DNA from: Maribacter algarum (ex Lu et al. 2025) (nom. illeg.)
GTDB taxonomy: Bacteria; Bacteroidota; Bacteroidia; Flavobacteriales; Flavobacteriaceae
Length of the DNA: 64,000 bases
Direction: 5' to 3'
Assembly: GCA_947495915.1 (NCBI GenBank)
Contig: CANMAW010000002.1
Coordinates: 186,001-250,000 of the forward strand
A program made the position numbers and the translations under genes. Positions within the stretch are counted from its first letter, which is position 1. Every line of letters begins with the position of its first letter. The notes under the pieces were generated by a model that was not told the DNA's origin, did not search any database, and was given only the letters and a program-made list of their open reading frames with translations. This document shows, piece by piece, positions 127 to 61,303 of this stretch.

Positions 127-2784
127 TTAGAACGAGTATCCTACGGTAAATAATACTCTTTTTGGGTTTTGAAAAACCGCTGAAGAAATTCTACCAATTC
201 CATCAGGGTTCGCCTGCAATTCTCTTAAACTAGCATCTCCGTCTTGCCCACCAACAACAAGTTGTCTTGCATTAGCACCATCGAAAAGGTTTTTAATACG
301 CATACTAATTTTTAATTCATCTTTACCTAATGGAAAGGTGTAGTATGCCCCAAGATTATATTCTGACATAGTAGGTAGTTTAACAAGGTTTAAAACATCT
401 GCATAGGCTCCAGAATAGGTGATGCCTCCAAAATCTGCTCCCCATCTGTCCGTATTGTATCCAATATTTACATTGTAAATAGTAGAAGGACGATTTGTAG
501 CTTTCAAACCACCAATATCAAATGCTTGTAAACCATTTGGTGTAGTTAAAAGATTCAAACCGAAAATATTATCAGGATCAGTAGTAGAGCTTAACGGAAC
601 TAAGAATGTTTTATATTCAGAATTTGATAATGTTACAGCTCCCCGTGCTAAGAATCCTTTAAGTGCTTTAGGGGTGTATACTGCTGATATTTCACCACCA
701 AAAACTTTATTTGCACCTGCAGGTTGTTCTACCCATTCACCAAGATCACCATCAAAAATTGTTGCTGTTCTGTTGTCAATGGTAGTGTTGAACATCGTAA
801 GATCAACAGTTAAATCACCTAAACCAGCTCTATACCCAATTTCTAGGTTATTTACAACTTCATTTTCCTCAGGCAACACTGTTGTAAGGTTTATTGAACC
901 TGGTAAAGAAAACGCTCTTACGTAATTAGCGTAAATAGCTGAAGATTCACCTAATAAATAATTCGCACCTATAGAATATGATAAATCATTGAATTTTAAC
1001 TCATTTTCTTCAAACGTAACAGGGTTGTAATCTACACCTGTTAGTCTTATTTCTTTAGGGTCATTGTTAAATCTGGTTTTTAGCCAATCGTACCGAAAAG
1101 AAACGTTAACACTTAATTTCTCGTTGAATACCATTTCATCACCAATAAATATAGCTGTACTAGCCTCGTCTCTGTTAGAAGAGGTGTTCGATACATATGA
1201 AGTAGGAGGTAATGTTGGGTCGCTGAATGAACCATTTGAAAATCCAAAAGAACTTGCTACGACTGGATTTCTAAATGCAACATTCGAACCATAAATGAAA
1301 TTTAGACCTAATCGATCTCTTTCAGCAGTACTATAATATACCCCACCACTAATATTGTGTTCAGTAGTCGCTCCCTTAATTTGTTTTGAAATTCTATGCT
1401 CTGTAATCCAGTCTCTATTTTGGTTATCAGCTGCACCATTGAACCTGCTTACAGTAGAATTGACATCATAAAAAGTGGAGAAATTGAATTCGTTAATGTC
1501 TAAGTATTTAAAGTCATTATAACGAACTCTTTCATTCCAGAACCACCCGTTGCCTAAATCAATATTAAAGTCAACACCTACTGAGGTACCTATTGTTTTT
1601 TCTTTATTTCTTCCTGGGTTATCTCTAAGAGGTACGCCATTTGCATCAGTTGCTGCTGAAGTATCAAAAAATGCGTTTCTTACCCCTATTTCACCAAAGA
1701 CGGTAGTGAGGTTTCCTGCATCATTAAAAAAGGTATTAGCAGGGTGCCAACCGTCTAAAATTTTGCCGTTCTGTAAGTCCCAAGGTCCATCAGTTATGTT
1801 TTGAAATTGGTTGTTAAAGGTACTTCCGTATACTCTTATTGAAGAAGTTTCAGTAATTAACCAATCAAAGTTGGCTCTAATTTGAGCACCTCTATCTTTA
1901 GCAAACTGCTCTTTAACGCCAGAATCTTCTAAAACGTAACCACCAACATTATAGCGAATTTTATCAGAAAGAGGTCCGTTGAAATTAAAGTCTGCACGAA
2001 AATCTACTTCATCTTCAAATTGATGCCCTTGCCTAGCATTATTGCTATACTTTGTGAGTGAAAAAGAACCTTTGTGCTCTGTGCCACCAGTTTTAGATAT
2101 AATGTTAATGGCACCAGCTGCTGCAGCTCTACCAAACAAGGTTGCAGCTGCACCACGTACTACTTCAATATTTTGAATACTTGGGTCAATACCAAAGAAC
2201 TCTTGCGTTCCGCCAGTTAATGCCTGTGTTCCTGAAATTGGTAAACCGTCTATTAATGTAGTTGTATAACTTGAACCACCAGGAAACCCACGAATATTAA
2301 ATCCACCTTTTCTACCTTGAGTTTCATCAATGGTAACACCAGGTGTGTTTTGAATTGCTTCTGAAAAAGATTCGGCTTTTATGGTTAATAATTCTTCAGC
2401 GCCTATCGAATTAATGGCAGTAGTAGCTTGAAGTTTTCTTACGGGCTTTCTAGTAGAAGATACTACGACCTCGTTTAAAAGGCTTACATCTTCGTTTAAT
2501 TGAACATTAACTGTAGAACCAGCTACTTCAACTTTCTTGCGACCAAAGCCAATATAGGAGAAAACAAGTATATCTCCGTTTGATGCTTGAATGCTATAAG
2601 CACCATTATCGTCTGTTACCACACCATTTGAAGTTCCTTGTACTTGCACGGTGGCGCCCAAGATTGGGTCATTGTTGTCGTCTGTTACGGTTCCTGTTAC
2701 TGTGCCACCCTGCGCAAAAATTAATGCAGAGCATAGCAGAAAACTGAATAAACAGACCAAATTCGTAAATTTCTTAGTTCTCAT
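127..2784 (-). CDS. TonB-dependent outer-membrane receptor
   Basis: An 885-residue outer-membrane active transporter. A Sec signal peptide (about residues 1-25, ending in FAQGG) is followed by a carboxypeptidase-regulatory-like beta-sandwich domain (about 27-105, GTVTGTVTDDNNDPILGATV), a plug domain (about 115-235, with the IRGFPGG and EVVRGAAATLFGRAAAAGAINI signatures) and a 22-strand barrel ending in the terminal Phe required for BamA insertion. No SusD partner is adjacent, so it is more likely a siderophore/FecA-FhuA type receptor for a small or bulky molecule than a glycan-utilisation SusC. It is transcribed away from the DUF1838 gene at 3286. Between them lie two copies of the island operator, one with a plausible minus-strand promoter (2890-2897). 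The substrate cannot be read from the sequence. From the island's content an alkyl-pyrrole or tetrapyrrole compound is proposed. Confidence 0.95.
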   Translation of the reverse strand: MRTKKFTNLVCLFSFLLCSALIFAQGGTVTGTVTDDNNDPILGATVQVQGTSNGVVTDDNGAYSIQASNGDILVFSYIGFGRKKVEVAGSTVNVQLNEDVSLLNEVVVSSTRKPVRKLQATTAINSIGAEELLTIKAESFSEAIQNTPGVTIDETQGRKGGFNIRGFPGGSSYTTTLIDGLPISGTQALTGGTQEFFGIDPSIQNIEVVRGAAATLFGRAAAAGAINIISKTGGTEHKGSFSLTKYSNNARQGHQFEDEVDFRADFNFNGPLSDKIRYNVGGYVLEDSGVKEQFAKDRGAQIRANFDWLITETSSIRVYGSTFNNQFQNITDGPWDLQNGKILDGWHPANTFFNDAGNLTTVFGEIGVRNAFFDTSAATDANGVPLRDNPGRNKEKTIGTSVGVDFNIDLGNGWFWNERVRYNDFKYLDINEFNFSTFYDVNSTVSRFNGAADNQNRDWITEHRISKQIKGATTEHNISGGVYYSTAERDRLGLNFIYGSNVAFRNPVVASSFGFSNGSFSDPTLPPTSYVSNTSSNRDEASTAIFIGDEMVFNEKLSVNVSFRYDWLKTRFNNDPKEIRLTGVDYNPVTFEENELKFNDLSYSIGANYLLGESSAIYANYVRAFSLPGSINLTTVLPEENEVVNNLEIGYRAGLGDLTVDLTMFNTTIDNRTATIFDGDLGEWVEQPAGANKVFGGEISAVYTPKALKGFLARGAVTLSNSEYKTFLVPLSSTTDPDNIFGLNLLTTPNGLQAFDIGGLKATNRPSTIYNVNIGYNTDRWGADFGGITYSGAYADVLNLVKLPTMSEYNLGAYYTFPLGKDELKISMRIKNLFDGANARQLVVGGQDGDASLRELQANPDGIGRISSAVFQNPKRVLFTVGYSF

Positions 2785-2897
2785 AAGGTTTGAATTACTG
2801 GTTTAGAATTATTTCACTTTGCCCAATTTTAAAGACTTTAGGCGTCAAAATGTCTTGAAAAATGTTATTAAAATGCTGTAATTATGGAACCAATATA

Positions 2898-3247: not shown

Positions 3248-3285
3248 TTTTATATAGTTTTAATTGAAATTAAGCATTAATAATT

Positions 3286-4155
3286 ATGAAATTAAAATTC
3301 ATTGTATTTATAAGTATTTTGGTATGTGGCTGTCAAAATCGATTAGAGACAGAAAAAAAAGTTGAAAATAGTGTAAAGCAACATCTATGGTCATCAACAG
3401 CTTCTTATAAAAATGCGCCAGAAGCTTTAAAGGTTTGGGTAGATGCTCGTGCTGGAACGGGTAAAGCTGTGCATTGGGTTGCTGATGGAGGTGTTTATGA
3501 ATACCCGACAGGTAAAAAACTTTTCGGAATGATAGGTTTCGATAGTTCTACTATTATTTGGCCAGATGAACCAGATGGTAAAATAGTACACCTTACAAGG
3601 AAAACTTTCGCTTATACTGACGCGGAAACTGGTGAGGTGTTAACAGAATACAATGGCGAACCTGTTGCCCCTATAGCCTACCCATATCAAATGATTACTT
3701 ATCGTTTAGAAAATGATAGAATTTATGGTGATGTGGAACAGGGTGTTGGAGATCGTGTGCAATTGATTGAATCTAAAGATGGAATTCCGTATCGACAAAT
3801 GGGTAGTGGATATATTTTTAATGCGGCGGTATTTTTAGATTTTCCATTGCCTAATGGAAAGCAATATCAGGCGTGGGAGAATTATGATTTCTTCATACAA
3901 CCAGAGGGTAGTGTCGATGAACCACATCAAATGGCATGGCAACGCTATGGTGCTTTACCCCCTTGGGCAGGTATGCCTGATACCAAAGCGATTATTCAGT
4001 TGCATTCATGGCGAGTTGAAAGTCATGAAGAATTTCCTCCAAAATTGTTAGCTTGGGCAAAAGCGAATAAGCCAAACTGGTTGAACCCTCCAAAAGATGT
4101 TAATGAAGTTAGAGCCTTGCAAAAAGGTGAAGCTGGAGCAGGGTGGGGCCGATAA
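3286..4155 (+). CDS. DUF1838-type exported lipoprotein
   Basis: A 289-residue protein with a short lipoprotein signal (lipobox LVCGC, Cys about residue 15). The middle of the chain carries the family signature YTDAETGEVLTEY (about 109-121), matching the D-x-ETGE-x-L motif of the three other DUF1838 proteins here. DUF1838 has no established biochemical function that I can name. The protein is predicted to sit in the periplasmic or outer-membrane leaflet. It is the most divergent of the four copies, so family membership is less certain. It stands alone as a transcript, directly behind an island operator and -7 box. A weak hairpin (GCTG-CACG-CAGC, about 4160-4171) follows the stop codon. Confidence 0.7.
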   Translation: MKLKFIVFISILVCGCQNRLETEKKVENSVKQHLWSSTASYKNAPEALKVWVDARAGTGKAVHWVADGGVYEYPTGKKLFGMIGFDSSTIIWPDEPDGKIVHLTRKTFAYTDAETGEVLTEYNGEPVAPIAYPYQMITYRLENDRIYGDVEQGVGDRVQLIESKDGIPYRQMGSGYIFNAAVFLDFPLPNGKQYQAWENYDFFIQPEGSVDEPHQMAWQRYGALPPWAGMPDTKAIIQLHSWRVESHEEFPPKLLAWAKANKPNWLNPPKDVNEVRALQKGEAGAGWGR

Positions 4156-4198
4156 TAGGCTGCACGCAGCTTTATAGTAAATTTGATTTTGTAAATAG

Positions 4199-5846: not shown

Positions 5847-8522
5847 ATGAAAGATATAGCTTCGACAACTTCCTTAGATTGGGAGCATGAAATTAAAGAA
5901 TGGATGGCCTCTCTTGAAGAGGTAATAACTGATTTAGGTGATGAACAGGCTGCTGATTTAATTCGAGAATTACGCGAGTTAGCAATTCGTAAGGGAGTGA
6001 AGTTAGCAGGTGAAGCGTTAAACTCACCCTATATTAATACCATTAATGCAAAACATCAACCACCTTACCCAGGTGATACTGTGATGGAAACTAAAATTGA
6101 AAACATTAACCGTTGGAATGCGATGGCAATGGTTTTGCAGGGCTATGACAGTGGAGAAGGTGTTGGAGGTCATATTGCTACATATGGTTCCGCCGCAAGT
6201 ATGTATGAAGTAGGGTTTAATCATTTTTTTAGAAAAAAATCTGCTGACTATGGGGGCGACCTAGTTTCTTTGCAGCCACATGCTGCACCAGGTGTTTATG
6301 CAAGAGCTTTGTTAGAAGGTAGATTAACCCAAGAAAACCTGAAAAATTTTAGACGCGAATTACAACCTGAAGGTGGTTTGCCCTCTTACCCACATCCTAG
6401 AAGGTTACCAGAGTTTTGGGAAATTCCTTCGGCCTCTATGGGGCTTATTGGAGTAAGCGCAATTTACCAAGCCCGATTTAAAAAATATCTTGAAAACAGA
6501 GGACTCAAAGAAAAGAATGGAGGCAAAATTTGGGCATTTGTTGGTGATGGAGAAATGGATGAGCCTGAAACGCTAGGAACATTAAACATCGCCGTACGAG
6601 AACAATTAGATAATTTGGTGTTGGTTGTCAACTGTAACCTACAACGATTAGATGGCCCTGTTCGTGGTAATGGCAAAGTAATACAAGAACTCGAACGTAG
6701 TTTCTTAGGTGCAGGTTGGAATGTAACCAAAGTAATATGGGGTAGTGAATGGGATGCGCTTTTAGAACGTGACCAAAAAGGAATTTTGGTAGACCGAATG
6801 AATAAAGCCCTAGATGGTGATTATCAAATGTATTCTGTGCTTCCGGGTGACGAAGTACGTAAGCACTGGGTAAAAGATAATCCTGAATTAGAAAAATTGA
6901 TGCATTCGCTTTCTGATGAAGAAATTCGTACTATCAAGCGCGGTGGTCATGACTATAAGAAAATTTATGCGGCATTTGATAAAGCAGCCAAACCAAATGG
7001 TAAGCCTAGTGTAATATTAATGAAAACCCTAAAAGGGTATGGTATGGGCGATTCTGGTGAAGGCAAAAACACTACCCATCAAAAGAAAAGCATGAGTGCT
7101 GATGAAAGAATTGCTGCGGCCAAGCGATTTGGAATTCCGATGAGTGAAGAAGATGCGGCTAAAGCAAAATTTTATGTACCCTCTGAAGATAGCCCTGAAA
7201 TTAAATATTTGAAAAAACAACGATTTGAGTTGGGGGGCTATTTGCCAGAACGTAAAGATGAGAGCCCGGTTATCAAAACACCGGGAGAAGAACTTTGGGG
7301 TGAATTCTATACGGGTACAGGAGAACGGTCGGTATCAACAACCATGGTTTTAGTACGTATTGTAACTAAACTTTTACGACAAGAGGGTGTAAAAGAGTAT
7401 GTAGTACCGATTATTCCTGATGAAGCCCGAACATTTGGCTTAGATGGATTATTTCGTTACGCCGGAATTTATCAGCCTAAAGGTCAACTGTATAAGCCCG
7501 TTGACGCAGATAGTATATCTTATTATAGAGAAAGTGTAGATGGCCAAATTCTTCAAGAAGGAATTTGTGAGGCTGGTGCTATAGCATCTTTTATGGCGGC
7601 AGGTTCTGCATATTCTATGCATGGTTTACCAATGATTCCCTTTTATGTATTCTATTCCATATTTGGTTTTCAACGTGTTGGTGATATGATTTGGGCTTGT
7701 GGCGATATGATGTGTAAAGGATTCTTAATTGGAGGTACGTCAGGAAGAACCACATTGAATGGTGAAGGAGTTCAACATCAAGATGGGCATTCGCATATTC
7801 TATCAAGTATTGTTCCGAATATGAAAAGTTATGATCCATCGTTTGCCTTTGAATTGGCATTGATTGTTAAAGATGGTATTCATAGAATGTATGAATTACA
7901 AGAAAAAATCTTCTACTATATTACAGTAACAAACGAGAATTACCCCATGCCAATGATGCCTGAAGGTGTTGAAGAAGGGGTAATTAAGGGTATGTATCGT
8001 TATGAAAAATCAACCAAAAAAATCAACAAAGGTAGAAAGGCGCATTTAATGGGTAGTGGCTCCATAATGCTACAAGTGATTGAGGCTAAAAAATTACTTG
8101 AAGAAATGGGAATTTCTACAGATATCTGGAGTGTCACAAGCTATACAGAACTACAACGAGATGCGCAGGAGGTAGAACGTCAAATGTTATTGTCTACTGC
8201 TGATAAAAGGCCAAAATCATATGTGCAGCAATTGACCGAGAATGAAACAGGAGTCTTTGTTTCTGTCTCTGATTATGTCAAACAGTGGGCGCATGGTATT
8301 TCAAAATGGATGCCAAAAGCATATCATGTTTTAGGTACAGATGGTTACGGTTTAAGTGAGGCAAGAAACGAATTGAGAGATCACTTTGAAATTAGTCCGA
8401 AGTTTATCGCTTTAGCTGCACTACAGTTATTGCGTGATGAAGAAGTAGTTTCTGCTAAAGAGGTAAAAGACTTTATCAAAAAACATCAGATAGATAGTAA
8501 TAAAATTAATCCTGCAAGTTAA
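5847..8522 (+). CDS. aceE: Pyruvate dehydrogenase E1, homodimeric AceE type
   Basis: An 891-residue thiamine-diphosphate enzyme that decarboxylates a 2-oxoacid (normally pyruvate) and reductively acylates the E2 lipoyl group. The TPP/Mg motif GDGEMDEP (about residue 233) through NCNLQRLDGPVRGN (about 260) is intact. Length and end-to-end features match the single-chain AceE family (about 885-890 aa) rather than the alpha/beta type. It is followed after 11 bp by its E2. No E3 (lipoamide dehydrogenase) is in the window, so E3 must come from elsewhere. The gene is directly behind an island operator, so it appears to be a pathway-induced copy that handles 2-oxoacid released by the aldolase at 20931. 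Activity with 2-oxobutyrate is possible but unproven. Confidence 0.95.
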   Translation: MKDIASTTSLDWEHEIKEWMASLEEVITDLGDEQAADLIRELRELAIRKGVKLAGEALNSPYINTINAKHQPPYPGDTVMETKIENINRWNAMAMVLQGYDSGEGVGGHIATYGSAASMYEVGFNHFFRKKSADYGGDLVSLQPHAAPGVYARALLEGRLTQENLKNFRRELQPEGGLPSYPHPRRLPEFWEIPSASMGLIGVSAIYQARFKKYLENRGLKEKNGGKIWAFVGDGEMDEPETLGTLNIAVREQLDNLVLVVNCNLQRLDGPVRGNGKVIQELERSFLGAGWNVTKVIWGSEWDALLERDQKGILVDRMNKALDGDYQMYSVLPGDEVRKHWVKDNPELEKLMHSLSDEEIRTIKRGGHDYKKIYAAFDKAAKPNGKPSVILMKTLKGYGMGDSGEGKNTTHQKKSMSADERIAAAKRFGIPMSEEDAAKAKFYVPSEDSPEIKYLKKQRFELGGYLPERKDESPVIKTPGEELWGEFYTGTGERSVSTTMVLVRIVTKLLRQEGVKEYVVPIIPDEARTFGLDGLFRYAGIYQPKGQLYKPVDADSISYYRESVDGQILQEGICEAGAIASFMAAGSAYSMHGLPMIPFYVFYSIFGFQRVGDMIWACGDMMCKGFLIGGTSGRTTLNGEGVQHQDGHSHILSSIVPNMKSYDPSFAFELALIVKDGIHRMYELQEKIFYYITVTNENYPMPMMPEGVEEGVIKGMYRYEKSTKKINKGRKAHLMGSGSIMLQVIEAKKLLEEMGISTDIWSVTSYTELQRDAQEVERQMLLSTADKRPKSYVQQLTENETGVFVSVSDYVKQWAHGISKWMPKAYHVLGTDGYGLSEARNELRDHFEISPKFIALAALQLLRDEEVVSAKEVKDFIKKHQIDSNKINPAS

Positions 8523-8533
8523 ATCCTTATAAA

Positions 8534-10150
8534 ATGACCGAATTAAAACTGCCCGAACTGGGTGAAGGTATTGAAAGTGGTACGGTAATTAATATTATGG
8601 TACAGGTTGGTGATACGGTTAAAGCAGAACAATCATTATTAGAAGTTGAAACCGATAAAGTAGTTGTTGAAGTCCCTTCTGATGCCGAAGGCGTCGTGAC
8701 TGAAATTTTAGTAAATACCGGTGATCAAGTTACTCAAGGTACTCCTATAATTCGCTTAAACACTGGGCAAGCTGTTCAAATAGAAACTTCAGAAAGTAAA
8801 ATTGAAGCTGTTGAAATTAACTTAGAAACTTCAGTTCAAAATAAAGAACTTGACTTAGATGTTGAAAAAGCAGTTTTAAGTATACCCAAAACTTCTGAAA
8901 TTAAGTTACCCTCCTTAGGTGAAGGCATAGAAAAAGGTACGATAATCGCTATTCATGTAAACGAAGGTGAATCTATAGCTGCTGAACAAACTTTAATGGA
9001 AGTTGAAACTGATAAGGTGGTCGTGGAAGTTCCTGCTGATTTTGGGGGCGAAATTCTCAGTATTTTGGTTAAAATTGGAGACGAAGTAGGTGAAGGAACA
9101 CCCATTATTAAAATTTCTAGTAATTCAATTTCAGATGAATCTCAAACTATCGTCGAAGAAAATATTGGCATGAAGATTCAGGCAGGTAAAACTATAAATG
9201 CAGAAAATCTAAATGTAAAAGAATCGCCCGATAGAATTTTTATTGGAGCCCGAAAAGGCCAGTTTAGAGCCTCACCGTTGGCAAAAAAAATTGCCCGTGA
9301 AATAGGGATTGATATTTCAATGATGCCCTTACGGGAAGGTACCAATCGTATCTCCGTGAAGGATGTAAAAAATTATGCAAAATCTATAAACCAAAGTAGA
9401 ACAACCGAGAGTGCGACCATGGCTATGGCTAGTTTACCTGATTTAAGTAAGTGGGGTAGTATTAGAAGTGAAGCTATGACAGGCATTATGCAGGCAACAA
9501 GTAAAAATATGTCGACTTCATGGAGCAATATTCCCCATGCTTGGTTACAAGAGAAAGTTGATATCACTTATTTAGAACAAATGCGACAAGCTCATAAAGG
9601 GGCTTTCAAGGCAAAAGGGAGTGCATTGACAATTACCGGAATTTTAGTGAAAGTTGTTGCTAAGGCACTTGAAGATTTTCCGATTTTTAATGCCAGTATT
9701 GATTCGCAAAATGCCGCCATAGTATATAAAGATTACATCAATGTTGGCGTCGCAGTAGATAGTGACAGAGGACTAATGGTTCCTGTATTGAGGCATGCGA
9801 ACGAGAAAAGTATCACCGATATTTCTTATGAACTTGGCTCTTTAGCGGATAAAGTAAAGAATAAAAAAATCTCCGCAGAAGAATTAGGGGGGGCTACTTT
9901 TACAATTTCTAACTTGGGGGGGATAGGAACAAGCGCGATCTTTCCATTGGTAAGCTTTCCTCAAGTTGCTATTCTTGGAGTTGCGGGAAGTCAAAAAGAA
10001 GCCGTTTTTATTGATGGACAATTTCAACCTCGCTTAATCATGCCATTAACCATAGGTTTTGATCATCGCGTTATCAATGGTGCAGATGCTGCAAGATTCT
10101 TAAAACGTATACAGCATTTACTAGAAGATTGGTTTATGTGGACCTTGTAA
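8534..10150 (+). CDS. Dihydrolipoamide acyltransferase (E2) of a 2-oxoacid dehydrogenase complex
   Basis: A 538-residue E2. It has two lipoyl domains (about 1-76 and 120-196), each with the lipoylation site ETDKVVVEVP. A peripheral-subunit-binding domain follows (about 243-280, RASPLAKKIAREIGID), then the acetyltransferase core (about 300-538) with the active-site signature DHRVINGADAARF near residue 510. This is the AceF-type partner of the upstream AceE E1, which requires the C-terminal trimer-forming core. The two lipoyl domains are joined by a Glu-rich linker. It is translated from the same transcript as aceE. It transfers the acyl group to CoA in the cytoplasm, giving acetyl-CoA or, with 2-oxobutyrate, propionyl-CoA. 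Confidence 0.93.
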   Translation: MTELKLPELGEGIESGTVINIMVQVGDTVKAEQSLLEVETDKVVVEVPSDAEGVVTEILVNTGDQVTQGTPIIRLNTGQAVQIETSESKIEAVEINLETSVQNKELDLDVEKAVLSIPKTSEIKLPSLGEGIEKGTIIAIHVNEGESIAAEQTLMEVETDKVVVEVPADFGGEILSILVKIGDEVGEGTPIIKISSNSISDESQTIVEENIGMKIQAGKTINAENLNVKESPDRIFIGARKGQFRASPLAKKIAREIGIDISMMPLREGTNRISVKDVKNYAKSINQSRTTESATMAMASLPDLSKWGSIRSEAMTGIMQATSKNMSTSWSNIPHAWLQEKVDITYLEQMRQAHKGAFKAKGSALTITGILVKVVAKALEDFPIFNASIDSQNAAIVYKDYINVGVAVDSDRGLMVPVLRHANEKSITDISYELGSLADKVKNKKISAEELGGATFTISNLGGIGTSAIFPLVSFPQVAILGVAGSQKEAVFIDGQFQPRLIMPLTIGFDHRVINGADAARFLKRIQHLLEDWFMWTL

Positions 10151-10835: not shown

Positions 10836-10842
10836 GTTGAAT

Positions 10843-15304: not shown

Positions 15305-15316
15305 AAAAAGGCTTGA

Positions 15317-22071: not shown

Positions 22072-22090
22072 TTTTTAATTGAAACTTAAT

Positions 22091-29514: not shown

Positions 29515-29517
29515 ATC

Positions 29518-30305: not shown

Positions 30306-30327
30306 CAATAATCAATACCTAAATCAA

Positions 30328-39326: not shown

Positions 39327-39377
39327 ATGTTTTAAATAATAGGTGAACAATCCCGCAATTCTAAAACATTTTTAAAA

Positions 39378-44787: not shown

Positions 44788-44791
44788 TATA

Positions 44792-50786: not shown

Positions 50787-50790
50787 AGGC

Positions 50791-51383: not shown

Positions 51384-52841
51384 TTATTTTGCTTTGAGCT
51401 TATTTAGCATGCTGTCAATTGCGCTAGCATTATGAACTTTACCATTTTTCAGCACCGTGTTAATATGGAGGGTGTTGTTTATATTTTCTAAAGGATTTGA
51501 ATTTAAAATAATTAAATCGGCCCACATATTTTCTTTGATTGAACCCAGCTCTTTCTCCATGTTAAAGTATTTAGCAGGATTGTAAGTTGCTGTTTTAATC
51601 GCTTCTAATGGGCTAAGACCCGCGTTTACTAAAGCTTCCAATTCAACATGTAAACTTCGACCGGGGGTTAAATAGGCAATAGGTGTATCAGTGCCTGCCA
51701 TAATAGGAATGCCAAAATCATGTATTTTTTTGATCATCTTTTTGTTGAAATTGGTCTGAGCTTCGAATGACGGGTTTATCGGATATTCTTTTAACGCTAC
51801 AGATCGTTTTTTCCAGTATTGAGCTATAGAATCTGGTAAGTATTGATAACTCTTTTGATAATGATCATTGGCGTAATATTGATTTGATAAAAAAGTGTTT
51901 AAAGCTAATGTTGGTATTTGCCATACATCATACTTTTTAAGAATTGTCAGAACTTTGTTAGCTTCTGCTTCGTTGTAATTCTTGATAGCTTCCTCTTTTT
52001 GAGCTGCATGAATAGCTGATCTGAGCTCGCCACCAGTCATGTTTTTTCCTTGCATCAGCATTTTTCGCCGTGATTCTAATAACTCATCACTGTTTGTGGC
52101 ACATGATAATTCTAAATTTCGCAAATGCTCCATACTGCTTAAGCCCGCCTCGGCAGCAGAAACTACATCCATACTTAATGGCACATGCCCAGTAACTTTT
52201 AATCCATTAGCTTTTGCCAATTCATTAATTTTCTTGAATTGTTTTGGTGAAAGCATTTCATATGCTTTAAGTAAATCGACATTTTTATCTATCAATAATT
52301 GAACTTGAGAAGTTATGTCTTCGAGTGAATGGAGTTCAACTGAAAGTTCTGGGTGTGCGGGGTCAGCACCATCATAAACGTTAGGTTCACCGTCTAGTAA
52401 TGGACCTGCCATCATTACTCGAGGGGCATCGGTTTTATATAATAATGACTTGTCTTTCCATTCCTTTACAAAATTGACATTACCACCGGTGTCACGAACG
52501 CTAGTGACTCCATTCGCTAAAAACAACGTAAACATGCGAGGCGCTATATCTTCTATATAAGCAAAATGAACATGTGTGTCCCACAATCCTGGCATTAGAT
52601 ATTTGCCGTCACCATCAATAATTTCATTTTCGTTCGAAAGGGTTATTTCGTCACTAGGCATAATTTTGATGATTTTCCCTTCTGAAATAATAACAGTTTG
52701 ATTGTTTTTTAAACCCTCAATAGGATCTATTGTTGCAATGTTCTGAATACAAATGGCATCTGGAAAATACGCTTGATGCGTGCCGCATGATGTCGCCAAC
52801 AATATAGTAGTGCTACAAAACAGGCGTAATATTTTTTTCAT
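51384..52841 (-). CDS. Exported amidohydrolase, imidazolonepropionase-like
   Basis: A 485-residue metal-dependent hydrolase lipoprotein (lipobox LATSC). The metal sites of the amidohydrolase superfamily are visible: DTHVHF (about 88-93), LLKAYEM (possible carboxylated Lys, about 195), TGHVPLS (about 218-224), SMEHLRN (about 236) and AGTDTP (about 378). The ending HINTVLKNGKVHN restores the beta-sandwich. Family members hydrolyse cyclic amides and related bonds, so a lactam or imide is an attractive substrate. Transcribed alone toward 51384 from the divergent operator at 52917-52953. Confidence 0.88.
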   Translation of the reverse strand: MKKILRLFCSTTILLATSCGTHQAYFPDAICIQNIATIDPIEGLKNNQTVIISEGKIIKIMPSDEITLSNENEIIDGDGKYLMPGLWDTHVHFAYIEDIAPRMFTLFLANGVTSVRDTGGNVNFVKEWKDKSLLYKTDAPRVMMAGPLLDGEPNVYDGADPAHPELSVELHSLEDITSQVQLLIDKNVDLLKAYEMLSPKQFKKINELAKANGLKVTGHVPLSMDVVSAAEAGLSSMEHLRNLELSCATNSDELLESRRKMLMQGKNMTGGELRSAIHAAQKEEAIKNYNEAEANKVLTILKKYDVWQIPTLALNTFLSNQYYANDHYQKSYQYLPDSIAQYWKKRSVALKEYPINPSFEAQTNFNKKMIKKIHDFGIPIMAGTDTPIAYLTPGRSLHVELEALVNAGLSPLEAIKTATYNPAKYFNMEKELGSIKENMWADLIILNSNPLENINNTLHINTVLKNGKVHNASAIDSMLNKLKAK

Positions 52842-54041: not shown

Positions 54042-54070
54042 AAAATTAGTTAACTATGTTAACTAATTTT
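54042..54070 (+). promoter_or_regulatory. Island operator, compact 29-bp perfect palindrome, copy 10 (propionyl-CoA operon)
   Basis: A perfect palindrome with 13-bp arms (AAAATTAGTTAAC and its complement) around TAT, differing from copy 6 only in the spacer. TACCTTTA (54075-54082), a -7-like box, follows eight bases after the core. It controls the five-gene carboxylase/mutase operon. Confidence 0.78.
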
Positions 54071-54118
54071 TCAATACCTTTATTGTTTTATTTCAATAGC
54101 AACCTTTATTTTAGGGAA

Positions 54119-54598
54119 ATGATAGATTATTTAATTACAGTAAATGACGAAGAAATTCAAGTGAATACCACTGAGGCCAAGGCATTAGATCGTATTCAAT
54201 TGTCTCCGTTGAAGCATCATGTTTTGCAGTCTGGTACGGCGTACAATGTAGAAGTTGTAGCTGAAGATTTCTTAAACAAATCTCTTTCAATCTCGGTCAA
54301 CGGTAACGTATACCGAATTAAAATAGAAGATGAGAAAGACCAATTAGTAAAAGAGATGGGGTTATTCGCGGTTACCAGCCAAAAGGTGAATTCGATAAAA
54401 GCTCCGATGCCTGGTCTTATTTTAGACATTATGGTTGAGGTAGGTCAAGAAATTATAGAAGGCACCCCATTACTGGTATTGTCAGCGATGAAAATGGAAA
54501 ATATAATTCTTTCTCAAGGAGAGGGAGTAGTAAAAGCTATAGCTGTACATAAAGATGATGCCGTAGACAAGGGACAGCTCATTATAGAAATGGAATGA
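54119..54598 (+). CDS. Biotin carboxyl carrier protein of an acyl-CoA carboxylase
   Basis: A 159-residue biotinyl protein. The C-terminal biotin domain (about 85-159) has the biotinylation site LSAMKMENI (Lys about residue 125) and the preceding KAPMPGLILDIMVEVGQEI (about 93-111). The start at 54119 is chosen because an upstream in-frame ATG lies inside the operator. The N-terminal half (YLITVNDEEIQVN) resembles the extra domain found in propionyl-CoA carboxylase carriers. It carries CO2 between the biotin carboxylase (54696) and the carboxyltransferase (56197). Confidence 0.9.
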   Translation: MIDYLITVNDEEIQVNTTEAKALDRIQLSPLKHHVLQSGTAYNVEVVAEDFLNKSLSISVNGNVYRIKIEDEKDQLVKEMGLFAVTSQKVNSIKAPMPGLILDIMVEVGQEIIEGTPLLVLSAMKMENIILSQGEGVVKAIAVHKDDAVDKGQLIIEME

Positions 54599-54695
54599 CA
54601 GTGCCCTTTAAAAGACATTGAATTTGGTATTAGAGTTAGTTAAGAATTATGAATAATTCTCGTTTACTCGAGATTGATCTTAAAATATTTATTGA

Positions 54696-56168
54696 ATGCG
54701 AAAAATACTAGTTGCAAATCGAGGTGAGATTGCATTTCGAATTATGCGAACTGCCCGTAAAATGGGAATAAAAACAGTTGCCGTTTATTCTGAAGCTGAT
54801 CGACAATCACCGCATGTGAAATTTGCTGACGAAGCGGTATTGCTTGGTCCTGCTCCTTCATCAGAATCTTATTTGGTTATGGATAAGATTATTAAGGCGG
54901 CAAAAGATACCGGTGCTGAAGGTATACATCCGGGTTACGGTTTTTTAAGCGAAAATGCCATATTTGCTCAAATAGTTGAAGATGCAGGTATAACCTTTAT
55001 TGGCCCTAAGCCACATGCCATTCAAGTAATGGGTAATAAGTTGGCCGCCAAAGAAGCGGTGCGTGATTATGATATTCCAATGGTGCCCGGTATTGAAGAA
55101 GCAATTACTGATGTAGCATTGGCGGAAAAAATTGCAAACGAAATCGGATTTCCTATTTTGATTAAAGCCGCTGCCGGAGGTGGGGGTAAAGGCATGCGTG
55201 TCGTTGAAAACAATAAAGAACTACCAGAACAGATGAATCGGGCGATCAGTGAGGCCGAGGCTGCTTTTGGAGATGGTTCAGTGTTTATTGAAAAATATGT
55301 AGGCTCACCAAGACATATTGAAATTCAGGTACTAGCAGATACACATGGTAATATCGTTCATTTATTTGAGCGTGAGTGTAGCGTGCAAAGAAGGCATCAA
55401 AAAGTGGTTGAGGAAGCTCCTTCTGCAGTGTTAACACCCGCGATACGTGAAAAAATGGGAGATGCAGCAATTAAGGTCGCAAAAGCTTGTGATTATGTAG
55501 GTGCAGGTACGGTAGAGTTTTTATTAGATGAGAATAAAAACTTTTACTTTCTTGAAATGAATACCAGACTTCAAGTAGAACACCCTGTTTCAGAACTAAT
55601 TTCTGGTATCGATTTGGTAGAGCAACAAATAAAAGTCGCGAGGGGAGAAAAATTAGAATTTGCACAAAAAGATTTGAAAATTACTGGTCATGCCTTAGAA
55701 GTTCGTGTATATGCAGAAGATTCTTTAGCAGATTTTATGCCGAGTATTGGTACACTTTCTACCTATCAAACTCCTGTTGGTGAAGGTATTCGCGTTGATG
55801 ACGGCTTTGAAGAAGGTATGGAGGTGCCCATTTATTACGATCCTATGATTTCAAAATTAATTACCTACGGAAAGAATCGTGATGAAGCCATACAATTAAT
55901 GATTGAGGCCATTGATAATTATAAAGTGGAAGGAATTTCAACAACGCTTCCCTTCGGAAAATTTGTTTGCGAACATGAGGCCTTTACTTCCGGTAAATTT
56001 GACACACATTTTGTAAAGAACTTTTATTCTCCAGAAGAACTTGAAAAAAAGTACGCTGAAGAACGCAAAATAGCTGCTGTAGTTGGTTTGCAATTGTATC
56101 TTGAGAATCAGAAAAATCTAAAAACAGCGAAGGCAGTCTCTTCTAACTGGCAAAAAAGTAGAACTTAA
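54696..56168 (+). CDS. Biotin carboxylase subunit of propionyl-CoA carboxylase
   Basis: A 490-residue ATP-grasp enzyme that carboxylates biotin. KILVANRGEIAFRIMRTAR (about 3-21) is the conserved start, AAAGGGGKGMRV (about 160-171) the ATP-binding Gly-rich loop, ECSVQRRHQKVVEEAPS (about 227-243) and FLEMNTRLQVEHPVSE (about 285-300) the catalytic region. Longer than stand-alone AccC (about 450 aa), with a charged C-terminal tail. Grouped with a carboxyltransferase and mutase, it serves propionyl-CoA rather than fatty acid synthesis. Confidence 0.93.
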   Translation: MRKILVANRGEIAFRIMRTARKMGIKTVAVYSEADRQSPHVKFADEAVLLGPAPSSESYLVMDKIIKAAKDTGAEGIHPGYGFLSENAIFAQIVEDAGITFIGPKPHAIQVMGNKLAAKEAVRDYDIPMVPGIEEAITDVALAEKIANEIGFPILIKAAAGGGGKGMRVVENNKELPEQMNRAISEAEAAFGDGSVFIEKYVGSPRHIEIQVLADTHGNIVHLFERECSVQRRHQKVVEEAPSAVLTPAIREKMGDAAIKVAKACDYVGAGTVEFLLDENKNFYFLEMNTRLQVEHPVSELISGIDLVEQQIKVARGEKLEFAQKDLKITGHALEVRVYAEDSLADFMPSIGTLSTYQTPVGEGIRVDDGFEEGMEVPIYYDPMISKLITYGKNRDEAIQLMIEAIDNYKVEGISTTLPFGKFVCEHEAFTSGKFDTHFVKNFYSPEELEKKYAEERKIAAVVGLQLYLENQKNLKTAKAVSSNWQKSRT

Positions 56169-56196
56169 AATCAAGCATAGCTTTTGAACTTTAATA

Positions 56197-57738
56197 ATGA
56201 AAGATAAAAAACAAATATTAGCAGACAAACTTGCAAAATCGCGTTTGGGTGGTGGGCAAGAACGTATTAAAAAGCAGCATGCTAAAGGAAAATTAACCGC
56301 ACGTGAAAGAGTTCACTTTTTGTTAGATGAAGGTTCTTTTGAAGAAATGGGAGCTTTAGTTACACATCGCACTAAAGATTTCGGAATGGAAAATCAAATC
56401 TATTACGGCGACGGAGTAGTAACCGGATACGGCACTATTAGTGGTAGACAAGTCTGCGTTTTTGCACAAGATTTTACGGTGTTTGGAGGTGCTTTATCAG
56501 AAACACACGCTGAAAAGATATGTAAGATTATGGATTTGGCGATGAAAATCGGTGTTCCTGTAATTGGGTTAAATGATAGTGGTGGAGCACGAATTCAAGA
56601 AGGTGTGCGTTCATTAGGCGGGTATGCTGATATTTTTCATAGAAATGTAATGGCATCAGGTGTAATTCCACAAATATCTGCAATTATGGGTCCCTGTGCC
56701 GGGGGTGCTGTGTATTCGCCGGCAATGACCGATTTTACGTTGATGGTAGAGAATTCTAGTTACATGTTTGTAACTGGGCCGAATGTGGTAAAAACGGTAA
56801 CTAACGAAGAGGTGACCTCAGAAGAGTTAGGAGGGGCTTCTACGCATGCAACCAAATCAGGAGTAACACATTTAACCGCTGCAAATGATATACAGTGTAT
56901 TAATCAAATCAAGCAGATGGTAAGTTATATGCCTCAAAATTGTGAGGATAAGCCTGCCGACTTACCCTTTGAAATGGGTCAAGAAATACGTGATGTTTTA
57001 GAAGACATTGTACCTGAAAATGCAAATCAACCTTATGATATGCGTCATGTGATTAATGGAATAATTGATGAAGATTCCTTTTTTGAAATTCACAAAGATT
57101 ACGCTGATAATATTGTTGTTGGTTTTGCGCGTTTAGGCGGTAAAAGTATTGGTATTGTTGCTAATCAACCTATTAGCTTAGCGGGAGTTTTAGATGTAGA
57201 TAGTTCAAAAAAAGCGGCTCGATTTACTCGATTCTGTGATTGCTTTAATATCCCCTTACTAGTGTTGGTTGATGTACCGGGTTTTTTACCAGGTACTGAT
57301 CAAGAATGGAATGGTATTATTACCAATGGAGCAAAATTATTATATGCATTGAGTGAGGCAACGGTTCCTAAAGTAACTGTTATTACTAGAAAAGCATATG
57401 GTGGTGCCTATGATGTTATGAACTCTAAACATATAGGTGCCGATTTAAATTTCGCTTGGCCAGGAGCAGAAATTGCCGTTATGGGAGCAAAAGGAGCTAG
57501 TGAAATTATATTTAGAAAAGAAATAAATGCTGCAGAAGATCCGGTGGCTAAGTTAGCTGAAAAGGAGGCAGAATATGCAGACTTATTTGCAAATCCGTAC
57601 AGTGCTGCCCAAAGAGGTTTTATTGATGAAGTGATTCTACCTAAGAATACACGTAGAAAATTGATTAAAGCATACACAACACTACAAAATAAAGTTTCAA
57701 ATTTGCCAAAGAAAAAGCATGGAAATATTCCTTTGTAA
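56197..57738 (+). CDS. pccB: Propionyl-CoA carboxylase beta (carboxyltransferase) subunit
   Basis: A 513-residue carboxyltransferase. [21 protein letters not shown] (split: [21 protein letters not shown]; about 30-50) is the family start. [16 protein letters not shown] (about 170-185) and [17 protein letters not shown] (about 361-377) form the acyl-CoA and biotin sites. It converts propionyl-CoA to methylmalonyl-CoA with the two preceding subunits. Ends 9 bp before the mutase small subunit. Confidence 0.94.
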
Positions 57739-57747
57739 TTTAAAAAA

Positions 57748-59115
57748 ATGAGTAAAAAGCCTTTGTTTGAATCGTTTTTACCTGTTTCTGCTAAAGAATG
57801 GAAGCAGAAAATACAGTATGATCTAAAAGGAGCTGATTATAATGAATCTTTGGTATGGGAGTCTCCCGAGGGTATCAAAGTCAAACCTTTTTATCATGCC
57901 GATGATGCTATTAAGACTTCTGAAAATTTAATCGCAAATTCTGGATGGTATATCGGACAATCTATCTATGTCGGTAATACTAAAATGGCCAATAATAAAG
58001 GTTTAAAGGCCATAGCTAGTGGAGCAGAAAGTTTATCCTTTAGTATTCCTTCTGATGAAATAAATATAGCTCAGCTCTTAAATAATATAGATGTCAATAC
58101 TATTCCGGTTCATTTTAATATGGAATTTTTGGCACCTAAATTTATAGCAAGTGTTTTAGATTTTACTAAAGGAAAGAATGATAATATATTTCTTAACGTA
58201 GATGCTATAGCACAACTAGCCAGAAATGGCAATTGGTTTGAAAACTTTAAAGAAGATTTTACAAATCTGAAAGAAATACTTCACCAAGGCTTTAAGAACT
58301 CCCTAAGCATTGATATTGGTTTGTATCAAAATGCTGGGGCTAATATGGTACAACAATTGGCTTACGGCCTAGCACATGCAAATGAGTACTTGAATGCTTT
58401 TGCAAGCGAAGAAGAACTGAAAACAATAACATTTAAAGTTGCATTAGGGTCTAATTATTTTTTTGAAATTGCAAAATTAAGGGCGTTACGTAAACTTTGG
58501 ATGGCATTGGTCAAAGAATATAGTTTGAAAATCGATTGTCACATCATAGCCATACCGACTAAACGAAATAAAACCCTCTATGATTACAATACCAATATGT
58601 TGCGTACTACTACTGCTACTATGGCTGCTGTTATGGGTGGTGCAGATACGGTAGTAAATATGGCTTATGACGCCATTTATCATAAAGACAACGATTTTGG
58701 AGAACGTATCGCATTAAATCAATTGTTGCTTTTAAAAAATGAAAGCTATTTAGATAAGGTGGGCAACCCGGCAGATGGGTCATATTACATTGAGAATATT
58801 ACTAATCAGTTGGCGGAAAAGGCGCTGATTTTGTTTAAATCAATTGAACATAACGGAGGATTTTTAAAGCAGCTCAAAGCGCATGTCATTCAAAGAAAAA
58901 TTGAAGAAAGCGCTCAAAAAGAGCAGGTGAAATTTGAAGCAGGTGAAGAAATATTGGTAGGTACAAATAAGTATCAGAATGAAAAGGATGTAATGAAAGA
59001 AACCATAGAACTATACCCATTTTTGAAAACCAATCCGCGGAAAACTTTAATACAGCCCATCTTAGAAAAGCGCCTTTCTGAAGGTATGGAGCAAAAAAGA
59101 TTGAACGATGAGTAG
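57748..59115 (+). CDS. mutA: Methylmalonyl-CoA mutase small (non-catalytic) subunit
   Basis: A 455-residue subunit homologous to the mutase TIM barrel but without the B12 domain. [30 protein letters not shown] (split: [30 protein letters not shown]; about 7-36) is the usual N terminus, and [15 protein letters not shown] (about 293) and [13 protein letters not shown] (about 339) match the family. Shorter than proteobacterial MutA (about 610), as is common in Bacteroidota. Its stop codon lies inside the start of mutB (8-bp overlap), so the two are coupled. Confidence 0.9.
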
Positions 59116-61303
59116 GAAAGATGTGTCACATATCACCTTAGGGTCAGAGGAAGAAAAAAATAGTACGGTAGTTCTTTCAAATGAAATTGGGAACGAACAG
59201 TTGCTACCGGGAATGGAGTTTTACGAAACGGCTGAAAAAATCACGTTGAAACCTTCTTTTACAAAAGATGATATAAAAGAAGCAGAGCATCTCGATTTTG
59301 CTGCCGGAATACCTCCATACCTGAGAGGACCGTATTCGACAATGTATGTTCGCAGACCTTGGACCATTCGTCAATATGCTGGCTTCTCTACTGCAGAAGA
59401 AAGTAATGCTTTTTATAGAAGAAATTTAAAAGGAGGACAAAAGGGATTGTCAGTAGCCTTCGATTTGCCAACACATCGTGGTTATGATAGTGATCATGAA
59501 CGTGTAGTGGGTGATGTCGGTAAGGCAGGTGTGGCCATTGATTCTGTGGAAGACATGAAAATATTGTTTGATGGAATTCCATTAGATAAAATGTCGGTTT
59601 CAATGACCATGAATGGTGCTGTATTACCGATAATGGCGTTTTATATTGTTGCGGCTGAAGAACAAGGTGTTGATAAAGCATTGCTCGCTGGCACCATTCA
59701 GAATGATATTTTGAAAGAGTTTATGGTGCGTAATACCTACATCTATCCGCCAAAACCTTCTATGCAATTAGTGGCTGATATTTTTGAGTATACGAGCCAA
59801 TTAATGCCAAAATTCAATAGTATAAGTATTTCAGGTTATCACATGCATGAGGCAGGAGCTTCTGCAGATATTGAATTAGCATATACCTTAGCTGACGGAT
59901 TAGAGTACATCAAGACCGGATTAAAAGCAGGATTAGAAATTGATAATTTTGCGCCAAGATTATCTTTCTTTTGGGGTATAGGCATGAATCATTTTATGGA
60001 GATTGCCAAAATGAGAGCAGCACGAATGCTTTGGGCGAAATTGGTGAAACAATTCAACCCAAATAATGATAAGTCACTAGCGTTACGTACGCATTGTCAA
60101 ACAAGTGGGTGGAGTTTAACAGAACAAGATCCATTCAACAACGTGGCACGTACAACCATTGAAGCAACAGCCGCTATATTAGGTGGTACACAAAGTTTAC
60201 ATACGAATGCCTTAGATGAGGCAATTGCCTTACCTACTGATTTTTCGGCTCGAATTGCTCGTGAAACACAGATTTATTTGCAAGAAGAAACGAAAATCAC
60301 GAAAACAGTTGACCCGTGGGCAGGTAGTTATTATGTAGAGTCTTTAACTGATGCATTGGTTCAAAAGGCTTGGGCTTTAATTCAAGAGGTTGAAGAACTC
60401 GGCGGAATGACCAAGGCCATTGAAGCTGGTATACCCAAAATGCGTATTGAGCAAGCAGCGGCAAGAAAACAAGCACGAATTGATAGTGGTGCTGATGTTA
60501 TTGTTGGGGTAAATAAGTTTCAGCTTGAAGTTGAAGAGGAATTACAAATTTTAGAAGTTGATAACCAAGAAGTAAGACGCCAACAATTAGAGCGGTTGGC
60601 TGCCATAAAGGCTAGTAGAAACGAAGTAGCGGTTCAATCTGCATTGAAAGAACTAACTGCTGCTGCCCAATTGAAAATGCAGTCTGGTGATGCCAATTTG
60701 CCCGCAGATAAAAATTTACTAGCTTTAGCTGTAAATGCCGCGCGATTGCGAGCCACTTTAGGTGAGATTAGCGATGCGCTAGAGGCTGTATTTGGCAGAC
60801 ATAAGGCAGTAATAAATTCATTTTCAGGCGTGTATTCAAAAGAAATAAAAGACGATAAAAGCTTTGAAAAGGCGAAAGCCATGACCGATCAGTTTGCAGA
60901 GCAAGATGGACGTCGCCCAAGAATAATGATTGCAAAAATGGGGCAAGATGGGCATGATCGTGGTGCTAAAGTTGTTGCTACGGGCTATGCCGACTTAGGC
61001 TTTGATGTTGATATTGGTCCCTTATTTCAAACTCCAGAAGAAGCCGCAAAGCAAGCCGTAGAAAATGATGTGCATATTTTAGGAGTGTCATCGTTAGCTG
61101 CAGGTCATAAAACTTTAGTTCCGGCTGTTATTGCAGCGCTAAAGCATTACGGCCGCGAAGATATCATGGTAATTGTGGGAGGGGTAATTCCTAAACAAGA
61201 TTATCAGTTCTTGCATGACGCAGGAGCCGTAGCTGTTTTCGGTCCGGGTACTAAAATTAGTGAAGCGGCTATTGAGTTGTTGAATATTTTGATTGAAGAA
61301 TGA
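59108..61303 (+). CDS. mutB: Methylmalonyl-CoA mutase large (catalytic) subunit
   Basis: A 731-residue adenosylcobalamin enzyme converting methylmalonyl-CoA to succinyl-CoA. The substrate barrel includes the typical [21 protein letters not shown] start (split: [21 protein letters not shown]; about 96-116) and the [19 protein letters not shown] block. The C-terminal B12 domain (about 600-731) has [13 protein letters not shown] with the base-off His and [14 protein letters not shown]. It is the last gene of the island. Methylmalonyl-CoA epimerase and a MeaB chaperone are not in the window. A short GAATGA/TCATTC inverted repeat overlaps the stop and may help terminate. Confidence 0.95.

Follow-up and report, generated by a model that had tools for sequence, protein, structure and literature searches.

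The described systems that come closest to the locus reported here are the T-type phycobiliprotein lyases CpcT/CpeT (PF06206), the dimethylmaleate hydratase DmdAB with the LeuCD/homoaconitase family, the caprolactamase CapAB, N-methylhydantoinase and 5-oxoprolinase, the allantoinase PuuE, the NicA2/Pnao-CycN nicotine dehydrogenases and the itaconate degradation pathway RipABC (Ict-Ich-Ccl). In this study, we analyzed 64,000 nucleotides of the 4.17 Mb Maribacter algarum genome (contig 2, positions 186001-250000, G000:C2; this whole stretch is called the window; G and L numbers are our handles for genomes and for loci or stretches). We read it as the larger part of a ~77 kb catabolic island for a nitrogen-heterocyclic compound. 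The likeliest candidate is a linear tetrapyrrole (bilin), possibly from light-harvesting pigments of algae and cyanobacteria, or its maleimide/pyrrolinone fragments, and we give this reading a probability of roughly 0.4. The generic pathway, with ring opening followed by hydration and cleavage of a branched dicarboxylate, is likely; that a tetrapyrrole is the substrate falls somewhat short of an even chance. The analysis is based on gene content, conservation and active-site residues, and the pathway steps are inferred from these.

The island is real and conserved. Its left end lies at about G000:C2:170,344, 16 kb left of the window, and the window contains its final 61 kb. Three Flavobacteriaceae genomes of different genera carry it: in the two others, G026 and G215, 51/55 and 50/55 of the listed window genes were found, mostly in the same order (CpeTa, AAT, RidA and Rhod were found in neither, and DUF1838b was not found in G215). 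The survey of other genomes that an earlier note on this DNA had called for thus returned the conserved island in these two genomes, and in addition a compact version in another Bacteroidota family. Every CpeT and DUF1838 match over the cut-off in the genome, four of each, falls inside the window, so their clustering is not due to chance. The four DUF1838 proteins, absent from the earlier note, are the best marker of the system. Within the Flavobacteriaceae, DUF1838 occurs in 3/299 genomes and CpeT in 22/299, while an AceE-type E1 was found in 2/60 and AcnL in 2/149, both genomes being island carriers in either case. McmA/B of the island is the sole full-length methylmalonyl-CoA mutase (MCM) of the window's genome; two mutase copies are present in 4/60 genomes, namely G026 (one copy in the island) and three non-carriers.

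The 2.7-kb right flank of the window has no match in the G026 and G215 stretches, which reach ~4-5 kb past McmB, and the right flanks of these two genomes do not match one another. The GC content of the island (36.2%) does not set it apart from the short flank (35.9%). Integration at a tRNA site was rejected, with tRNAs at 62811-63021 in the window and none in the stretches L105, L108, L111 and L112. The island has probably been exchanged horizontally. No regulator was recognised among the listed window genes; a MarR gene lies at the far end of the island, outside the window.

The 16 kb left of the window were read, and most of them profile-scanned. From the outer end, they encode the MarR regulator, a second CN-hydrolase homologue, a VOC-like protein (by eye, no Pfam match) and an alcohol dehydrogenase (ADH) similar to ADHb, followed by an alpha/beta hydrolase, a short-chain dehydrogenase (SDR), a BASS-type transporter, two PuuE-like hydrolases (PuuE1, PuuE2) and an isochorismatase-family amidase, in which D, K and C, presumably the family motif, are intact by eye. 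Further inward stand a SnoaL-like protein (by eye), CaiB and a carboxymuconolactone-decarboxylase-family protein, and innermost HydS2 (with the usual SSRE motif) and HydL2, which make up a second aconitase-type hydratase, followed by an HMG-CoA-lyase homologue and an aldehyde dehydrogenase. These genes recur in G026 (17/17) and G215 (15/17; SDR2 and SnoaL2 were not found in the stretches read). HydL2/HydS2 of G026 and G215 were considered as housekeeping leuCD, which was rejected as they are part of the island. The left part would supply steps absent from the scheme of the earlier note: two cyclic-amide hydrolases, an amidase, and a second hydratase with an HMG-CoA-lyase homologue. The catabolic order of that scheme, ring opening before hydration and cleavage of a branched dicarboxylate, is backed by these genes and by other lineages, partly with other enzymes.

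In the proposed pathway, a TonB receptor would import the compound into the periplasm, to be held or processed there by CpeT-type calycins and DUF1838 proteins; in larger versions of the system, flavin dehydrogenases exported by twin-arginine translocation (Tat) would pass electrons to cytochrome c. MFS and BASS transporters would import the fragments, PuuE-like enzymes and HyuAB would open imide or lactam rings, and the isochorismatase-type amidase would release ammonia. The branched C4-dicarboxylates would then enter two parallel branches, AcnLS with HpcH and HydL2/HydS2 with CaiB and the HMG-CoA-lyase homologue, yielding pyruvate or other 2-oxoacids and propionyl-CoA, which the pyruvate dehydrogenase (PDH), propionyl-CoA carboxylase (PCC) and MCM of the island would take up. 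The order of steps matches the needs of substituted maleimides or lactams. Oxidation of haem or chlorophyll is known to yield methyl-ethyl-maleimide, methyl-vinyl-maleimide and hematinic acid (PMC7318184). The two ring types of bilins would suit two hydratase-lyase branches.

A PuuE2 search of 296 Bacteroidota genomes returned the window's genome and two genomes of one other family, which carry the compact version. Its genes were named by BLAST to island proteins and with our own CpeT and DUF1838 profiles, DUF1838 being confirmed with the Pfam model. The first half (20 kb) was read without a DUF1838, and a genome-wide search then placed the sole DUF1838 of each genome beside it on the same contig. 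This half runs PuuE1, PuuE2, isochorismatase amidase, SnoaL, open reading frame (orf) orf29518, methyltransferase-fold protein, HyuB, HyuA, SDR, HapK, HpcH, AcnS, AcnL and DUF3598; the second half runs MFS2, TonB receptor, DUF1838, HMG-CoA-lyase homologue, HydL2, a transporter-like protein (by eye), HydS2, CpeT, CaiB and a VOC-like protein, with orf37531 and an aldehyde dehydrogenase in addition in G348. The stretches read hold one CpeT, one DUF1838 and one DUF3598, and identity to the island amounts to 63-66% for HpcH, 71-74% for SDR, 61-62% for DUF3598 and 62-63% for MFS2. In ~40 kb per compact genome, profile hidden Markov models (HMMs) found no flavin oxidase, window-type cytochrome c, AceE-type E1, FADb2 or 10170-type protein, and BLAST at 1e-8 found no PDH, PCC or MCM match in ~40 kb around each cluster; flavin oxidases, cytochrome c, PDH, PCC and MCM are therefore accessory or encoded elsewhere. 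The shared core thus comprises both hydratase-lyase branches and the ring hydrolases together with CpeT, DUF1838 and DUF3598. As the compact version includes CpeT and DUF3598, the connection to bilin lyases is not incidental. Small fragments that are already oxidised might be what the compact core lives on, and the larger island with its flavin dehydrogenases might handle bigger molecules.

The aconitase-like hydro-lyase and the aldolase announced in the earlier note are present, the former as an aconitase-type pair by Pfam and NCBIfam and the latter as an HpcH/HpaI aldolase by Pfam. AcnL/AcnS and HydL2/HydS2 belong to the same superfamily as DmdAB and LeuCD/homoaconitase, but AcnS carries KSIE in place of SSRE in all three carriers, so that its substrate probably lacks a citrate-type third carboxylate. 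On the LeuD/DmdB small-subunit model TIGR02087 (cut-off 108.95), HydS2 reaches 198 bits and AcnS 91 bits. Dimethylmaleate can be converted to pyruvate and propionate, and calycins are able to bind lipids. A methyl-substituted ring without nitrogen, such as the head groups of plastoquinone or tocopherol, could accordingly be the substrate, degraded through dimethylmaleate while the calycins bind lipid. This chemistry suits AcnLS, HpcH, PDH, PCC and MCM, and a tannase-like gene was seen by eye at one Baikal DUF1838 locus. However, no ring-cleaving dioxygenase was recognised, the VOC2 proteins are without conserved metal ligands, and the ring-amide hydrolases and amidase of the core would be left without a role, which makes a nitrogen-free ring decidedly unlikely.

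The flavin oxidases with cytochrome c of the earlier note were recovered, two flavoproteins and the cytochrome by Pfam and the third flavoprotein by phmmer to MAO-B. A Tat-exported flavin amine oxidoreductase beside an exported cytochrome c is also the arrangement of NicA2/Pnao-CycN (PMC12224317; see also PMC9396064). The former paper gives a Tat signal and an adjoining exported cytochrome c as marks of a cytochrome-c-linked flavin dehydrogenase, and AmOx3 has both: it starts with MKTNRRRFIK (Tat-like, by eye), and its gene lies 4 bases from the cytochrome c gene. Unlike in the nicotine enzymes, the near-universal lysine beside flavin N5, reported to promote the reaction with O2 (PMC12224317), is Gln in all three flavin amine-oxidase-fold proteins of the window. 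Across the aligned proteins, this lysine is replaced in 21/22. The aromatic cage of amine oxidases, inspected by eye, gave no decisive pattern and was dropped as a criterion. The remaining genes of the island are, as we take it, unlike the nicotine pathway.

Four clear CpeT-like proteins had been claimed for the window, and four exceed the PF06206 cut-off of 21 (63.7-93.8 bits). No clear fifth was found; the divergent one probably corresponds to orf 37531-38097, whose match is weak (probability 17%, E 0.0014; one relative E 3.6e-5). We take E54, Y65, R66, R68 and D163 to be the bilin-site residues of CpcT, their roles reportedly having been described by Zhou et al. in 2014. In an alignment to Nostoc CpcT, CpeTc keeps all of these together with C116 and C137, while CpeTa has Q54, CpeTd G65, and CpeTb T65, V68 and K163; CpeTa, c and d thus share Cys116, Cys137, Arg66, Arg68 and Asp163 with the lyases. 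Homology to CpcT could also mean that these proteins attach bilins to proteins in a biosynthetic or light-sensing role. This is very hard to credit for proteins that carry export signals (by eye) and are set among hydrolases, lyases and transporters of a catabolic island. Unlike the known lyases, they occur in non-phototrophs and in several divergent copies, two of them with a C-terminal extension. The extension of CpeTb and CpeTd forms a separate gene directly upstream of DUF1838 in five alphaproteobacterial loci (L028, L031, L051, L053, L055), a fusion-type link between CpeT and DUF1838. The 'CPET' matches in these five loci and in L046 were not counted as CpeT because they are mainly to this extension and not to the CpeT domain. 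A distant relationship between DUF1838 and CpeT was not detectable.

The nearest named relatives of DUF1838c come from Maribacter algarum, Croceitalea sp. and Maribacter vaceletii (88-90% identity), M. vaceletii DSM 25230 and M. algarum RZ26 being carriers in the part read. The 65 relatives belong mostly to Sphingomonadales, with some other Proteobacteria and five cyanobacteria. Annotation of the neighbourhoods by six-frame profile search revealed a frequent sphingomonad block in which a PaaK-like ligase, two MmgE/PrpD, two CaiB, an acyl-CoA dehydrogenase, a RipB-like hydratase and a RipC-like lyase accompany DUF1838, a 10170-type membrane protein, MFS, FAD_binding_4, a CN-hydrolase homologue and a methyltransferase-fold protein. 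The RipB-like and RipC-like enzymes and the CaiB transferases recall RipABC, but the former two, at 231 and 228 bits, stay under their curated cut-offs of 340 and 375 bits, and the flavobacterial island has aconitase-type hydratases and other lyases instead. At a locus of the gammaproteobacterium Arenicella, DUF1838 and a flavin oxidase-fold protein are accompanied by two PuuE-like proteins and two isochorismatase-family amidases, together with LeuCD-type genes, CaiB, an HMG-CoA-lyase homologue and a protein of the arylmalonate-decarboxylase family. The identities of this locus to the window's genome (Isoch 75%, PuuE2 73%, PuuE1 61%) suggest horizontal exchange across phyla. Arenicella LeuC exceeds the isopropylmalate dehydratase subfamily cut-off and could be housekeeping.

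As a control, 57 non-flavobacterial, non-cyanobacterial DUF1838 loci were set against 20 stretches of 20 kb taken arbitrarily from four of these genomes (HMM E 1e-10); the loci are related to each other, and members of the test set went into building several of the HMMs. PuuE-like proteins were found in 15/57 loci, amidase-signature proteins in 19/57, isochorismatase in 4/57 and HyuA in 1/57, any of these four in 26/57, and a RipB-like plus RipC-like pair in 29/57, against 0/20 throughout. Neither an N-hydrolase nor a hydratase or lyase was present in 13/57 loci, and HapK (7/57, p 0.11) and AcnL (3/57, p 0.4) were not significantly enriched.

A number of results weigh against bilins or maleimides as the substrate. 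HyuAB and the isochorismatase-type amidase fit hydantoin breakdown equally well, and the best solved relatives of HyuA are N-methylhydantoinase and 5-oxoprolinase. In N-methylhydantoin breakdown, ring opening is followed by removal of the carbamoyl group through an isochorismatase-family amidase. The same architecture could therefore serve another N-heterocycle (hydantoin, a cyclic ureide, an imidazolone or an alkaloid), with PuuE-like enzymes or HyuAB opening the ring and the amidase removing the carbamoyl group. Along this line, allantoinase PuuE is the NCBIfam model closest to PuuE1, PuuE2 and their relatives. For the isochorismatase relatives of L046 and L021, an unspecific hydrolase model comes first and then, for 2/3, RutB and biuret amidohydrolase, and the pairing of an exported flavin dehydrogenase with cytochrome c is reminiscent of the nicotine system. 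PuuE1 and PuuE2 reach 118 and 103 bits on TIGR03212 (cut-off 424.6); they and their sphingomonad relatives share the PuuE family. HyuA and HyuB, homologous to CapAB, N-methylhydantoinase and 5-oxoprolinase, score 553 bits on the CapA and 204 on the CapB model (cut-off 1000 each). With CpeT and DUF3598 in the compact version unexplained, and likewise two aconitase-type hydratases with two lyases, we regard this alternative as rather doubtful.

The bilin or maleimide reading is further weakened on the side of its markers. CpeTb has lost R68 and D163. The three DUF1838-carrying Flavobacteriaceae have 3-4 divergent CpeT copies, whereas 19 others have a single, higher-scoring CpeT without DUF1838; 17/19 of these loci were read, none with island partners, and CpeT was rejected as proof of bilins. 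One SDR and one aminotransferase-type match were the only island-like matches there, and in 14 of these 17 loci (L113-L129) the neighbours include argS, TPR-protein or dimethylarginase-like genes (names by eye). CpeT is present in 16/37 DUF1838-bearing genomes, three of them cyanobacteria. At the control loci, CpeT-profile matches (6/57, p 0.15, mainly to the C-terminal extension), flavin oxidase (7/57, p 0.11), cytochrome c (4/57, p 0.29) and HyuA were not significantly enriched. HMMs detected no flavin oxidase in the compact core and inspection by eye no oxygenase, yet the splitting of a tetrapyrrole should require such an enzyme. Methylmalonyl-CoA mutase, found in 53/60 Flavobacteriaceae, is common anyway. 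No His or Glu of the VOC2 proteins is conserved at 85% (35 sequences, VOC2a numbering), and the aligned catalytic Cys of the CN-hydrolase homologues is missing in at least 32/34 aligned sequences in all, the window protein among them.

Given the distribution of DUF1838, the combination of DUF1838, CpeT, VOC2 and TonB could also be a periplasmic toolkit of general use for lipophilic dissolved matter, serving several unrelated compounds and no single substrate. G320, the Baikal metagenome-assembled genome (MAG) of L045, has 28 DUF1838 and 11 CpeT matches, and G303, the MAG of L011, has 27 DUF1838; in G320 the DUF1838 genes are scattered with differing neighbours, which by eye include TonB receptors and Rieske oxygenases in some cases. 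The four MFS and four CpeT copies of the window point the same way. The gene content is, however, near-constant across three genomes of different genera and the compact version is single-copy in the stretches read, and we consider a toolkit unlikely.

Some further observations concern the partner families. Active CN-hydrolases (nitrilase superfamily) use a catalytic Cys, and a role of the homologues in half-amide hydrolysis was rejected as the aligned Cys is missing; L164 and L166 have a Cys near the aligned position. Several of these homologues (including window 43648-44811 and L252:2914-3960) have export signals by eye, and the family adjoins DUF1838 across phyla; it is a candidate pseudo-nitrilase with a new role. 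A methyltransferase-fold homologue (L215:7849-9045) appears to bear a Tat-type signal, odd for an S-adenosylmethionine-dependent enzyme. For DUF1838, no solved relative was found, and one paper mentions it among the literature matches listed. Cyanobacterial DUF1838 genes lie in L064-L067 and L069; a pigment-biosynthesis context was rejected after ten L064/L067 neighbours were scanned, which belong to abrB-type, rplI, dnaB, SDR, aminotransferase and transposase families (two without match), unlike the island. The DUF1838 neighbourhood of L009, a record titled Klebsiella pneumoniae MAG, is like that of the environmental proteobacterial MAGs L008 and L012, and the label is probably wrong.

The features of the window are collected in Table 1. 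The Pfam scan covered 40/55 listed genes and the NCBIfam scan 10 and 2 further genes. PdhE1/E2, PccA/B, McmA/B and the MFS genes were identified by reading the sequence, and AmOx3 was compared with solved structures; together with the Prx, rhodanese, ADHb and biotin carrier genes, these make up the rest of the list. Among the remaining claims of the earlier note, the hydantoinase/oxoprolinase pair (HyuA/HyuB, by Pfam) and the DUF3598-like calycin (DUF3598_N, 26.6 bits, cut-off 22) were both found. The VOC family is present, its VOC2 members lacking the conserved metal ligands. An amidohydrolase exists as stated, but its likeness to imidazolonepropionase is not supported: it scores 56.9 bits on hutI TIGR01224 (cut-off 298), and its best NCBIfam model is Xaa-Pro dipeptidase at 100.5 bits (cut-off 500).

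Table 1. Features of the window with coordinates, strand and evidence
Feature	Position	Strand	Evidence
TonB-dependent receptor, outer-membrane uptake	127..2784	-	Pfam; kept in G026, G215; TonB receptor also in compact version
DUF1838 protein a, lipoprotein-like signal by eye	3286..4155	+	PF08894 36.3 bits
AceE-type pyruvate (2-oxoacid) dehydrogenase E1 and E2	5847..10150	+	read from sequence
Membrane protein, conserved His11, Arg57, Lys150	10170..10835	+	36/57 DUF1838 loci vs 0/20 control stretches
DUF3108-like protein	10828..11565	+	sub-threshold Pfam; 17/57 DUF1838 loci vs 0/20 control stretches
CpeT protein a (CpeTa), exported by eye	13345..14046	-	PF06206 93.8 bits; phmmer to Nostoc CpcT 4o4o E 1.3e-6
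Two MFS transporters	14057..16591	-	read from sequence; family in 36/57 DUF1838 loci vs 0/20
DUF3598-like protein	16910..17428	+	PF12204 26.6 bits
AcnL, aconitase-type hydro-lyase large subunit	17474..18742	+	Pfam, NCBIfam
Exported flavin amine-oxidase-fold protein 1	18753..20099	+	PF01593; Gln at flavin-N5 Lys position
AcnS, aconitase-type small subunit, KSIE for SSRE motif	20110..20637	+	Pfam, NCBIfam, alignment
HpcH/HpaI-family aldolase or lyase	20931..21692	+	Pfam
HapK-like protein	21760..22071	+	PF11639 40.7 bits
Short-chain dehydrogenase (SDR)	22079..22924	+	Pfam
HyuA, ATP-dependent lactam/hydantoin hydrolase subunit	23061..25133	+	Pfam, NCBIfam; best solved relative N-methylhydantoinase
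Flavocytochrome c/fumarate-reductase-type flavoprotein	25136..26563	+	Pfam, NCBIfam; no match in compact version
HyuB	26694..28313	+	PF02538 476.7 bits
Conserved trio: methyltransferase-fold protein, orf29518, SnoaL-like protein	28327..30305	+	Pfam, profile annotation of other loci
CpeT protein b (CpeTb) with C-terminal extension	30247..31425	+	PF06206 63.7 bits
DUF1838 protein b, Tat-like signal by eye	31434..32348	-	PF08894 85 bits
Two-domain VOC protein without conserved metal ligands	32463..33419	+	Pfam, alignment
DUF1838 protein c (DUF1838c), exported by eye; survey anchor	33430..34344	+	PF08894 227 bits
FGE-sulfatase-domain protein within operon	34832-35779		Pfam; kept in G026 and G215
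CpeT protein c (CpeTc), lipoprotein-like signal by eye	35795..36517	+	PF06206 68 bits
Second two-domain VOC protein	36529..37530	+	Pfam
Possible divergent CpeT-like protein (orf37531)	37531..38097	+	weak match
Two further MFS transporters	38100..40610	+	read from sequence
Exported CN-hydrolase homologue without catalytic Cys	43648..44811	-	Pfam, alignment
Exported flavin amine-oxidase-fold protein 2	45793..47292	-	Pfam, residue alignment
DUF1838 protein d	47276..48187	-	PF08894 48.2 bits
CpeT protein d (CpeTd) with C-terminal extension	48202..49209	-	PF06206 73.2 bits
Tat-exported flavin dehydrogenase 3 (AmOx3) and adjoining cytochrome c lipoprotein	49281..51252	-	AmOx3 phmmer; cytochrome c Pfam
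Exported amidohydrolase	51384..52841	-	Pfam, NCBIfam
Biotin carrier, PccA, PccB, McmA, McmB: propionyl-CoA to succinyl-CoA	54056..61303	+	read from sequence

Among the literature matches listed, with subscription papers and preprints outside the search, there was no description of this cluster or of a bilin-degrading or CpeT-containing catabolic cluster, and no paper on a bacterial gene set mineralising the nitrogen-bearing rings of chlorophyll, haem or bilins; the pathway is apparently undescribed. These pigments are produced and lost at huge scale. Tentatively, and with the odds somewhat against it, heterotrophs of at least two phyla may mineralise linear tetrapyrroles or maleimide/pyrrolinone fragments by this route, with exported CpeT proteins as catabolic bilin handlers and two parallel hydratase-lyase branches that lead alkyl- and propionate-bearing rings into central metabolism. 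The island offers a compact, testable gene set and a possible role for DUF1838 and for CpeT outside phototrophs. Even with another N-heterocycle as substrate, a conserved island with two parallel hydratase-lyase branches would be worth solving.

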